DNA from: Niastella sp.
GTDB lineage: Bacteria > Bacteroidota > Bacteroidia > Chitinophagales > Chitinophagaceae
Direction of reading: 5' to 3'
Assembly (NCBI GenBank): GCA_017744515.1
Contig: JAGIBF010000007.1
Coordinates: 1-64,000 of the forward strand
DNA length: 64,000 bases
Both the position numbers and the translations under genes were made by a program. Positions 49,383 to 55,783 of the stretch are shown here, one piece after another (the first letter of the stretch is position 1; the number at the start of each line of letters is the position of its first letter). The notes beneath the pieces are model-generated. The model did not search any database. It was not told the origin of the DNA and saw nothing but the letters and a program-made list of their open reading frames with translations.

Positions 49383-49436
49383 ATGAACATATTTACGCAC
49401 ATACATCACCATCATCATACTTACCCTTCCAGGTAG
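49383..49436 (+). CDS. hisL: His operon leader peptide (17 aa, six His)
   Basis: Reads MNIFTHIHHHHHTYPSR and stops at TAG 49434. His is encoded by CAC/CAT at 49398-49400 and five times in a row at 49404-49418. Such a His run in a tiny frame directly downstream of a promoter and upstream of a terminator is the hallmark of attenuation. There is no A-rich leader before it, because the ATG is only a few bases from the expected transcript start, so translation is likely leaderless. Confidence 0.85.
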   Translation: MNIFTHIHHHHHTYPSR

Positions 49437-49499
49437 GCCGGTGGTGCTTTGTTCAGTGCCATATCATATTAAAGGGCTTACCGCAGGTAAGCCCTTTTT
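49407..49499 (+). promoter_or_regulatory. Transcription attenuator of the his operon
   Basis: Terminator: AAAGGGCTTACC (49471-49482), loop GCA, GGTAAGCCCTTT (49486-49497), T5 ending 49499. Antiterminator: GGTAGGCC (49432-49439) can pair with GGCTTACC (49475-49482). Pre-emptor: CACCATC inside the His codons (49407-49413) can pair with GGTGGTG (49440-49446). Ribosome stalling at His codons would free the 49432-49446 stretch to disrupt the terminator. Confidence 0.8.
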
Positions 49500-49502
49500 G
49501 CG

Positions 49503-50051
49503 TCTGAACCATGATTAAGTGGATTATAGGGATTAGGAGGAAATAAAAAGGTTCCTGACATTTTCAATAGGCCTTGATTAGTAGTATTTGGATACGTATG
49601 AAAAACCAAATACTTGCTATATGAGTGAATTAAAGTACGGTTCAATTACTGAGAGAGTAATTGGTTGCGCGATGAAGGTGCATGCTGCGTTGGGCAACGG
49701 CTTTCAGGAGGTAATTTATCAAAGAGCGCTGGCTATTGAGTTAAGCTATGCACGAGTTGAGTTTGAGCGGGAATTTAGTATGAAGATTTACTACAGGAAC
49801 GAGGAAATAGGAGAGCGGCGGGCAGATTTTTTTGTAGACAAAAAAGTTATGGTGGAACTAAAAGCTTTAACTGCTTTGGAAAATGTACACCTGGCGCAGG
49901 GAAAAAATTACTTGGAAGCTTACAATCTTGAGGTAGGACTGCTGATAAATTTTGGAGCTACAAGCTTACAATTTAAAAGGCTTGAGAACTTTAAATATAA
50001 ACCAGGCCCTTATCCTCAAAATCTATAAAATCAAATAAATCATGGTTCAGA
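49503..50051. mobile_element. GxxExxY cassette bounded by ~32-nt inverted repeats
   Basis: Left repeat 49503-49534 and right repeat 50020-50051 are inverted copies: 14 identical bases (TCTGAACCATGATT) then 12 of 18 more. They enclose one gene of the GxxExxY family. No transposase. No clear target duplication seen. It separates the his attenuator from hisG. Confidence 0.65.
49621..50028 (+). CDS. GxxExxY protein
   Basis: Small protein of the GxxExxY family, related in fold to PD-(D/E)XK nucleases. Seen: GFQEVIYQRAL at about residues 27-37 (the naming motif), then DFFVDKKVMVELKAL (Asp and Glu-x-Lys as in the nuclease core) and NYLEAYNLEVGLLINFGATSLQFKRL. 135 residues from ATG 49621; an upstream in-frame ATG at 49588 adds 11. 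Its stop lies inside the right inverted repeat. It is common as a single mobile-like gene in many phyla and its function is unknown. Here it would be transcribed under his attenuation. Confidence 0.85.
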   Translation: MSELKYGSITERVIGCAMKVHAALGNGFQEVIYQRALAIELSYARVEFEREFSMKIYYRNEEIGERRADFFVDKKVMVELKALTALENVHLAQGKNYLEAYNLEVGLLINFGATSLQFKRLENFKYKPGPYPQNL

Positions 50052-50902
50052 TGCTTAGAATAGCCATCCAGAAGTCGGGACGTTTGTATGAAGATTCGGT
50101 GCAATTGCTGAAAGAATGCGGTATCGACTTGCGCAACGTAAAAGACCGCCTGCGAACAGAAGCAGACAATTTCCCACTGGAAGTATTTTTCCTGCGCGAT
50201 GACGATATTCCTCAATACGTGGAAGACGGCGTGGCCGACATTGGTATTGTAGGCGAGAACGTGCTGTTTGAAAAGAACAAGCAAGCCGAAATAGTGGAGA
50301 AGCTGGGTTTTGGCAAATGCCGCCTGTCGGTAGCGGTGCCCCGTGGTCAGCAATATGAGGGCGTAGCTTCTCTGCAAGGCAAGCGCATCGCCACCAGTTA
50401 TCCCTTTCTCGTTAATTCCTTCCTCGCAAAGAACAACGTACAGGCTGAGATCCACGAGATCAGCGGTTCAGTAGAGATTGCCCCCGGCATTGGACTTGCC
50501 GATGTGGTGGCCGATCTGGTGAGCAGTGGCTCTACACTCTTCATGAATGGCCTGAAAGAAGTAGAAACCATTCTGCAATCACAGTCGGTACTTATCAGGA
50601 ACAACCAGCTGAATGCAGCACAACAACAATTGCTCGATAAGTTGTTGTTCCGTATAAGGGCTGTGAAGAAGGCCAAACGCACCAAATATGTATTGCTCAA
50701 TGCTCCTAACGAGAAACTGAAAGAGATCATCGGTTTGCTGCCCGGCATGAAGAGCCCCACGGTATTGCCGCTGGCCCAGGAAGGCTGGAGCAGTGTACAT
50801 AGCGTGTTGAGCGAAGACACTTTCTGGGATATTATCGAACAGCTGAAAGAGGCCGGCGCCCAGGGTATTCTCGTGGTCCCCATCGAGAAAATGATAATCT
50901 AA
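50051..50902 (+). CDS. hisG: ATP phosphoribosyltransferase (long form)
   Basis: First enzyme of histidine synthesis, joining PRPP to ATP. Seen: MLRIAIQKSGRLYEDSVQLLKECGI at the start, VADIGIVGENVLFEK, RIATSYPFLVNSFLAKN, and the PRPP-binding ADVVADLVSSGSTL. The C-terminal ~75 residues (from about KAKRTKYVL) form the ACT-like regulatory domain that senses histidine, marking the long form. The native start is taken as ATG 50051; ATG 50042 belongs to the end of the GxxExxY cassette. 283 residues. Confidence 0.95.
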   Translation: MLRIAIQKSGRLYEDSVQLLKECGIDLRNVKDRLRTEADNFPLEVFFLRDDDIPQYVEDGVADIGIVGENVLFEKNKQAEIVEKLGFGKCRLSVAVPRGQQYEGVASLQGKRIATSYPFLVNSFLAKNNVQAEIHEISGSVEIAPGIGLADVVADLVSSGSTLFMNGLKEVETILQSQSVLIRNNQLNAAQQQLLDKLLFRIRAVKKAKRTKYVLLNAPNEKLKEIIGLLPGMKSPTVLPLAQEGWSSVHSVLSEDTFWDIIEQLKEAGAQGILVVPIEKMII

Positions 50903-54802: not shown

Positions 54803-55216
54803 ATGCGAAAGACATTCCTGCTGATTACCTGCGCTGCTGCCTTCCTGCTGACGGCTGCACAGGTTAAACCTAAACCGGTACCTAAAAAAGTGATGGACAA
54901 TGGCAAGAAAGTATACGACACCTATTGCCTGCCCTGCCACCAGCAAGATGGCAGCGGTGTACCCAACATGACCCCCACCTTGATAAAAACAACCTGGGTA
55001 ACGGGCGATAAAACAAAGCTGGTGCAGGTGATCCTGAAAGGGTTGAAAGGAGTGGAAGTGGATGGAGAAACGTATGAGAACGTGATGGCCCCCCACGATT
55101 ACCTCACCGATCAGGAGATCGCCGACGTAACCACTTTCATTCGCAACAGTTTTGGCAACAAAGCAAGCATGCTCACGCCTGCTGAAGTAAAAGCGATCAG
55201 GGCTAAAACGAAATAA
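54803..55216 (+). CDS. Cytochrome c, monohaem, exported
   Basis: Class I cytochrome c. Seen: signal peptide MRKTFLLITCAAAFLLTAAQ, haem motif CLPCH near residues 44-48, and an axial Met in ENVMAPHDYLTD. 137 residues. It forms a pair with the dehydrogenase-like gene upstream and would carry its electrons in the periplasm. The short 11-nt gap suggests a single transcript with the his genes. Confidence 0.92.
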   Translation: MRKTFLLITCAAAFLLTAAQVKPKPVPKKVMDNGKKVYDTYCLPCHQQDGSGVPNMTPTLIKTTWVTGDKTKLVQVILKGLKGVEVDGETYENVMAPHDYLTDQEIADVTTFIRNSFGNKASMLTPAEVKAIRAKTK

Positions 55217-55222
55217 GTACAA

Positions 55223-55737
55223 GAATCCAGAATTTAGAATCCAGTATTCAGAATAGAATACTGGAAGTGAAGGGCTGATTGGTAGCATGTTAGTTCGATT
55301 GCTTAACCTCAATGAATAATTACATGCAACCAGCAAAATGTTTCGAAGATTTAATCGTATGGCAGAAAGCACACCAATTCACGATCGGTATTTACAACTA
55401 TACAAGAAGTTTTCCTCGTGAAGAAGTGTATGGCCTAACTTCGCAGTTTAGACGTTCTACAGTTTCTATAGCGGCTAATATTGCCGAAGGGTTTAAGAAG
55501 AGGGGTATAAAAGACAAGGCCAAGTTCCTGAATATTTCCCAAGGTTCATTGGAGGAGTGCAGGTACTACCTGATTTTAGCCCGGGATCTTGGTTATGGTG
55601 AGAACCAACAGTTGAAGAATTTACTCGAAGAAGTAAGCCGAATGCTTGAGTCTTATTATAGTGCTATAACAAAAGGAATTGTTTAAACATTCATAAATCT
55701 TTTTTATTCTGAATGCTGGATTCTGAATCCTGAATTC
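55223..55737. mobile_element. Four-helix-bundle cassette bounded by 33-nt inverted repeats
   Basis: Left 55223-55255 and right 55705-55737 are inverted copies with 29 of 33 bases matching, made of ATTCTGAAT words. One gene (55312-55686) lies between. The right repeat extends into further ATTCTG words to 55772. No transposase. Confidence 0.6.
55312..55686 (+). CDS. Four-helix-bundle protein (23S rRNA intervening-sequence protein family)
   Basis: Member of the four-helix-bundle family first seen in intervening sequences of 23S rRNA genes. Seen: FEDLIVWQKAHQFTIGIYNYT, GLTSQFRRSTVSIAANIAEGFKKR, FLNISQGSLEECRYYL and LLEEVSRMLESYYSAI, the four helices in order. 124 residues. It lies outside any rRNA gene here, between the cytochrome and hisB. 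Function unknown; its small size and repeats fit a spreading cassette. Confidence 0.9.
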   Translation: MNNYMQPAKCFEDLIVWQKAHQFTIGIYNYTRSFPREEVYGLTSQFRRSTVSIAANIAEGFKKRGIKDKAKFLNISQGSLEECRYYLILARDLGYGENQQLKNLLEEVSRMLESYYSAITKGIV

Positions 55738-55783
55738 TTATTCTGTATTCTGTCTCCTGTATTCTGTATTCTAAATTTTCTAC

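Follow-up and report, generated by a model that had tools for sequence, protein, structure and literature searches.

A GxxExxY gene between inverted box-array arms before hisG: a candidate nuclease-based counterpart of REPIN/RAYT systems

The window analyzed here, a 64-kb stretch of DNA from a draft Niastella genome (G000; 7.63 Mb in 172 contigs), raises the question of how a single gene framed by inverted repeats came to lie between the leader of a histidine operon and hisG, and whether the product of that gene has a part in the spread of the repeats that bound it.

The cassette, its cassette-free relatives, and its protein

The cassette (49503-50051) consists of one GxxExxY gene between inverted arms and is located after the terminator of the his leader and ahead of the start codon of hisG. 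The leader peptide, MNIFTHIHHHHHTYPSR (49383..49436, +), read from the sequence and also seen in four congeners, is followed by the terminator stem, a perfect 12-bp inverted repeat, and then a T run (49471..49497, +); the left edge of the cassette falls a few bases past this T run. The 5' arm recovered by the repeat search (49500..49541, +; outer edge of the exact core at 49503) comprises the cap TCTGAACC and GATT/GGATT boxes, and the 3' arm (50013..50054, -; outer edge of the exact core at 50051) is its inverted copy. Between them lie a short hairpin, AGTATTTGG / CCAAATACT (49583..49614, +), read from the sequence and paired in the predicted fold, and directly after it the GxxExxY gene (49621..50028, +), which encodes a 135-aa protein with a predicted PD-(D/E)XK nuclease fold on the basis of profile matches and a structure model. 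hisG (50051..50902, +) has a start that is conserved in the congeners: the A of its ATG is the final base of the 3' arm, which also contributes an extra in-frame ATG at 50042. An earlier sequence-only reading had placed the cassette exactly between attenuator and hisG, with an identical 14-base core at both ends, 26 of 32 arm bases matching, and no transposase, and this description holds in each respect. Exact copies of the core TCTGAACCATGATT are present at 49503-49516 (+) and 50038-50051 (-), the count by eye over the first 32 arm bases is the same, and no transposase is found among the listed ORFs of the cassette, the sole family in its protein being PF13366. The repeat search extends the arm pair to 42 nt each (79% complementary) and finds no inverted repeat of at least 12 nt inside either arm. 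With up to two mismatches, the core occurs three times in the window versus 0.53 expected, and Rfam gives no gathering-level match within the 64 kb. Judged from its position, it is plausible that the cassette gene is expressed only under histidine shortage, as had been proposed; the hairpin at 49583-49614 or a promoter within the cassette may also bear on its expression.

The genus set comprises five genomes with one hisG each, namely, G000 and the four congeners represented by loci L067-L070. In 4/4 congeners, the leader, terminator, a short spacer, and hisG follow one another and the cassette is absent, so that the empty sites that the sequence-only reading had proposed to look for are present in every relative of this set. 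Insertion in G000 is a simpler reading of these loci than loss in all four congeners. No target-site duplication was seen at the hisG cassette, where the spacer of the relatives is not preserved in G000. The spacer before hisG in one congener (G003) ends with GGATCAGATG, near the arm end GGTTCAGATG of G000, and a short match of this kind may have served at the insertion junction.

The cassette protein is recognized by PF13366 with 130 bits (cut-off, 22) and by TIGR04256 "GxxExxY" with 132 bits (cut-off, 35). Its motif positions are GxGxxExxY at 25-33, D69, E79-x-K81, and Q93; across the 117 family genes surveyed below, G27, E30, Y33, D69, E79, K81, and Q93 are 97-100% conserved. The dN/dS ratio is 0.026-0.084 in the 7/11 pairs with computable dS, which is near saturation. 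The gene thus looks to be under selection, with near-invariant catalytic residues. Sequence searches found no solved structure at E values up to 1. An AlphaFold2 model of the window protein, made together with 41 relatives, has a pLDDT of 90, and the solved fold closest to it is 4ic1 (Sso0001; Foldseek E value, 1.5e-4; Z score, 10.0 over 97 residues, with 7.3 for the next row), a protein that is a Cas4 according to PMC5704561. The GxxExxY protein is modelled as a Cas4-like, RecB-like PD-(D/E)XK nuclease fold. PADLOC reports a weak match to Cas4b (E value, 0.0017), and among phage families only phrog_5928, of unknown function, was matched (E value, 0.002). A criterion for Cas4 is the presence of four cysteines for an Fe-S cluster; the cassette protein has a single cysteine and hence no four-cysteine Fe-S site.

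Inverted arms around GxxExxY genes and their dispersed copies

The family survey covered 117 genomes, with PF13366 present in 76. Eighty regions were taken from the PF13366 matches listed, a list headed by the best scores, together with 35 loci from searches; they yielded 117 distinct GxxExxY genes (none in region L109), of which 112 have full 250-bp flanks. Flanks were scored by aligning the 5' flank locally with the 3' flank in reverse complement and taking the best alignment. At a threshold of 14, matching inverted flanks surround 74/112 GxxExxY genes versus 11/263 same-locus control ORFs and 2.7% of 4,000 mixed-locus pairs, with 38/112 genes lacking arms at this threshold. In G000 itself, three of the four GxxExxY genes score at least 14 and L002 scores 10 (300-bp flanks). 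An independent cross-phylum set, drawn from a protein-pattern scan of titled genome records and confined to the best 80 of 583 relatives, gives 48/79 genes, 7/197 controls, and 8.0% of mixed pairs at the same threshold, and 31/79 genes are without arms. Its records include a Methanosarcinales archaeon (L180, L209), Dolichospermum (L179), Anaerolineae (L216), Planctomycetaceae (L236), Acidobacteriaceae (L223), Verrucomicrobiaceae (L184), Thioalkalivibrio (L215), and Bacteroidaceae (L185); many of them are MAGs, for which binning errors are possible.

By eye, the cross-phylum arms follow a consensus of roughly TTnACC-RCRRAG-RCRCRRAG-RCRCRRAG, with CACAGAG, CGCAAAG, CACGAAG, and CGCAGAG as box variants. 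The arm type of the window, TCTGAACC-GATT-GGATT, looks like a derived variant of this box type, and the arm at L161, TTCTGAACCACGGAGGCAGGGAGAACACAGAG, looks intermediate between the two. The ratio of 4-mer self-matches to those in control flanks peaks at lag 9 in the family set and at lag 8-9 across all phyla, with a modest excess (1.8- and 2.5-fold); the box pitch is therefore given as about 8-10 bp, and an initially considered pitch of 11 bp was dropped. Some loci are arranged differently: L158, L064, L243, and L204 have a whole palindromic box array on one side, with boxes in both orientations, and in some of the loci reading CTTTGCG/CTTTGTG (L047, L062, L092, L104) the arms are reversed, with the cap beside the gene and the boxes outward. 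Terminator hairpins were rejected as an origin of the flank scores, since the arms inspected are mostly not hairpins, although palindromic arrays do make up a few flanks (L158, L064); a chance inverted repeat was ruled out by the reversed controls, the window count against its expectation, and the flank controls.

The type of arm follows the lineage of the protein. In the 75 of 117 family genes that score at least 14, protein identity and arm similarity between genomes are correlated with a rho of 0.47, and 0/2,000 permutations were as high. Arm likeness is equal for same-genome paralogs and for different genomes (0.29 each); when arms were permuted only within genomes, the value was 0.22 ± 0.05, and the observed one was reached in 0/5,000. 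This shows that gene and arms are co-inherited as a unit; covariation alone does not imply recognition and could be plain co-inheritance. Copy number likewise goes with the resident gene. With only the fetched genes classified and the arms at those genes subtracted, the median number of GATT copies elsewhere is 6 in the 21 genomes with a resident GATT-type gene versus 0 in the 33 without (P = 5.6e-5), and that of CACAGAG copies is 6.5 in 8 genomes with a resident gene versus 0 in 46 without (P = 6.7e-7). As exceptions, 3 of the 33 genomes without a classified resident GATT gene carry 13, 28, and 28 copies. G001 (25 arm copies) and G009 (13 copies) have no detectable GxxExxY gene; G002 and G004 have neither such a gene nor arm copies.

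Throughout G000, the 14-mer TCTGAACCATGATT recurs at 49 places (18 exact and 31 with one mismatch), versus 0 for the reversed control, which answers the question of whether similar termini exist elsewhere. Most of the 47 arm sites inspected run on as GATTnnnnGGATT; one box is found at L025 and none at L013 and L292, which may be chance matches or decayed arms. A second GxxExxY gene of this genome (L004) has an arm family of its own: places similar to its arms, AACACGAATT..GCGAATTACACGAATT, number 48, versus 0 for the control, and 20 of them were written out. Like the cassette, single arms are mostly absent from the orthologous places examined in the congeners: at five sites whose upstream gene is present in all four, the arm is missing at 19/20 such places, site F being common to G000 and G003 (6 of 12 flanks were searched, and site E gave no ortholog match). 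Single arms in G000 are often located at stop codons, sometimes providing the stop. Those at L284, L006, L009, L016, and L290 coincide with the stop codon of the gene before them; with frames read by eye, the arm supplies the stop as GTCTGA at sites A, D, and F and as CCATGA at B and C, where a native stop is found in the congeners no more than about six codons from the junction. With a simple ORF caller, and as counts without a random control, 19/46 GATT single arms have a same-strand stop at most 40 bp away on the cap side (inside the arm in 10 of these), 5/46 lie inside a called ORF, and near-stop arms make up 11/20 of the AATTCG family and 2/19 in G106. In several arm types, the cap includes a TAA or TGA. 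By eye, the copies at L008, L011, L022, and L027 follow terminator-like hairpins, as the hisG cassette does.

Further derivatives were seen in other genomes. Doublets, defined as an arm copy with a scored inverted partner at most 200 bp downstream (controls, 0.0-0.3%), account for 10/14 copies in G025 and 4/19 in G106 (2 at a stricter score); in G000 they number 0/46 for the GATT type and 2/20 for the AATTCG type, and one inward-facing GATT pair (L286) seen by eye scores below the threshold. G081 has 208 arm copies and a single GxxExxY match, to a C-terminal remnant (contig C46 around 82734; L383, 1389-1700), about 312 bp end to end, between near-identical inverted arms of the copy type of that genome. 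The single arms, gene-less inverted doublets, and this internal-deletion remnant look like non-autonomous relatives of the gene-bearing cassette. Two related cassettes, L228 and L221, lie in unrelated surroundings and can be aligned between -62 and +59 relative to the gene; these limits are near the L228 arm edges (64 and 45), whereas the best-scoring arms of L221 are further out (219 and 153). Other related pairs (L047-L042 and L206-L190) are syntenic over kilobases.

The resident nuclease and its rivals as candidate drivers of mobility

Insertion of an arm-bounded unit is supported by the empty sites; that the nuclease drives this insertion is what we infer. We regard it as probable that the cassette is a minimal mobile element, similar to REPIN/RAYT but based on a PD-(D/E)XK nuclease, with the single arms, doublets, and remnant as its non-autonomous relatives. 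The minimal unit would comprise one Cas4/RecB-like PD-(D/E)XK gene and two inverted arms, each made of a cap and boxes at a pitch of about 8-10 bp. The nuclease would recognize its own arms and cut or trim DNA there, and the arm-bounded segment would then be copied or joined elsewhere by host repair or replication enzymes. The cassette before hisG would be one such insertion, and the single arms would relate to it as REPs and REPINs do to RAYT genes. The sequence-only reading had spoken of a "non-autonomous mobile unit." An inserted unit with recurring termini is what the 4/4 empty sites and 49 places point to; the word "non-autonomous" fits less well: the cassette with its gene is more aptly taken as the complete member, and it is the single arms, gene-less doublets, and internal-deletion remnant that look non-autonomous.

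A wider generalization is that there exists an undescribed class of transposase-free mobile elements, widespread among bacterial phyla and present in some archaea, whose Cas4-fold nuclease mobilizes its cognate box-array repeat, seeds genomes with tens to hundreds of single arms and doublets, and favors gene ends, with a parallel class built on a PF05635 protein; this we put forward tentatively, as a possibility that falls short of being probable. A cassette-like unit with a PF05635 gene is found in the his region of the window itself. At 55216-55777, just before a hisB-like gene (by eye), this gene (23S rRNA-intervening-sequence protein; 55324-55686), which scores 127 bits and also matches bAvd below threshold, lies between inverted AGAATCC/ATTCTG boxes, the repeats at 55216-55258 and 55702-55744 being 84% complementary. 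The PF05635 protein is a four-helix bundle. Among 30 PF05635 loci (L302-L331), 24 of the 29 whose flanks are complete are bracketed by inverted box repeats, versus 7.8% of mixed pairs, with AAGTnnTAAGT, GGCACAAAG, and TTAGTATTTAG as box types; these flanks are equally clear, and thus the arrangement is not private to the GxxExxY nuclease. In G003, a PF05635 gene is seen about 4-5 kb past its hisG.

That unrelated PF05635 genes are flanked alike, one of them in the window, is a point in favor of a different account, in which the arm-bounded unit is mobile via another enzyme (for example, a Y1 transposase, a recombinase of the host, or copying of the reverse-transcription type) and GxxExxY and PF05635 are cargo, for example, for defense or end protection. 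The presence of arms in genomes without a detectable GxxExxY gene is consistent with it, as is the one Y1_Tnp gene among the 11 control ORFs with inverted flanks, two others of which are PF05635 genes. However, arm type tracks the GxxExxY lineage, even among paralogs of the same genome, and goes with resident genes, a pattern not predicted if one enzyme were shared in trans; we consider the cargo account rather unlikely, if one to be taken seriously. Three of these control ORFs had been considered as RAYT genes, a reading that was dropped: L118 (2232-2690, +), with strong inverted flanks, is alone in being a Y1_Tnp (IS200-like) gene; L093 (811-1431, -), also with strong inverted flanks, is RAYT-like by eye and has no Pfam match; and L152 has a sub-threshold match.

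A lone nuclease-type gene in an insertion with clean empty sites also recalls homing-type nucleases, and the sequence-only reading had suggested a unit that is perhaps self-homing; in this case, GxxExxY would cut cassette-free sites, repair from a cassette-bearing copy would fill them, and spread would take place between alleles. Yet homing between alleles gives neither the same arms at dozens of unrelated sites nor related cassettes in unrelated surroundings, and we hold it to be quite improbable. It is very unlikely that the arms, rather than being ends of a mobile element, act locally in regulation or RNA processing by pairing with each other in the transcript on either side of the gene: the cassette arms do pair with each other in the predicted cassette RNA (z score, -4.8), and the 19/46 single arms with a same-strand stop at most 40 bp away on the cap side would suit such a role, but the present and absent alleles at orthologous sites (19/20 places without the arm), the different arm types of same-genome paralogs, and the gene-less doublets elsewhere argue against it. 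Chance or an assembly artefact, for which the 172-contig draft state of G000 might speak, is scarcely credible given reversed-pattern controls of 0 and the agreement of two independent locus sets.

Comparison with known systems

GxxExxY is a common protein family, and box arrays of the CGCAAAG and CACAGAG types are scattered through genomes. In the open-access PMC literature, five arm strings searched for and the term "PDDEXK_3" are absent, and no description of the gene-plus-arms arrangement is found among the matches listed; within that literature, the arrangement appears to be undescribed. The name itself occurs in PMC8934634, where it labels a domain next to a CRISPR-like reverse transcriptase, and in PMC12085832.

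Several known systems invite comparison. With Cas4, including the solo-Cas4 and MGE-Cas4 forms (PMC5704561), the GxxExxY protein shares a predicted fold nearest to Sso0001 and a weak Cas4b profile match; it differs in being much shorter, in having one cysteine, in lacking adjoining cas genes, and in having its own repeat arms. The PF05635 cassettes are alike in being a small single gene between inverted box repeats and different in protein family and, mostly, in boxes. Cas4 prepares DNA for the CRISPR integrase, which makes a Cas4-like fold suggestive in this context. In MITEs, gene-less inverted-repeat doublets occur beside a gene-bearing form, as in the GxxExxY arm families; in the latter, in contrast, a transposase-bearing parent was not found and no target-site duplication was seen.

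The closest operational analogy is with REPIN/RAYT systems, which PMC3116915 describes as short, dispersed, mostly extragenic repeats that form inverted doublets, with one repeat-flanked gene, with repeat types that pair with different genes, and with copies that outlast a lost or broken gene. On the features described there, the GxxExxY system is similar, with dispersed repeats, doublets, a single repeat-flanked gene, type-specific pairing, and copies that persist after loss or breakage of the gene. The differences are equally clear: the gene encodes a PD-(D/E)XK nuclease, whereas RAYT is a Y1 tyrosine transposase; the single arms are box arrays, whereas REPs are palindromic; single arms rather than doublets prevail in G000; and a related box grammar is common to members found across many phyla and in archaea. 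Without a Y1 transposase and palindromic repeats, the GxxExxY element is not a REPIN/RAYT by membership, although by analogy it may work like one. The link between a repeat type and a resident nuclease gene gives GxxExxY and the box repeats alike a testable role and would add to REPIN/RAYT a counterpart based on a nuclease; since every such gene comes with its own candidate site, simple assays become possible.
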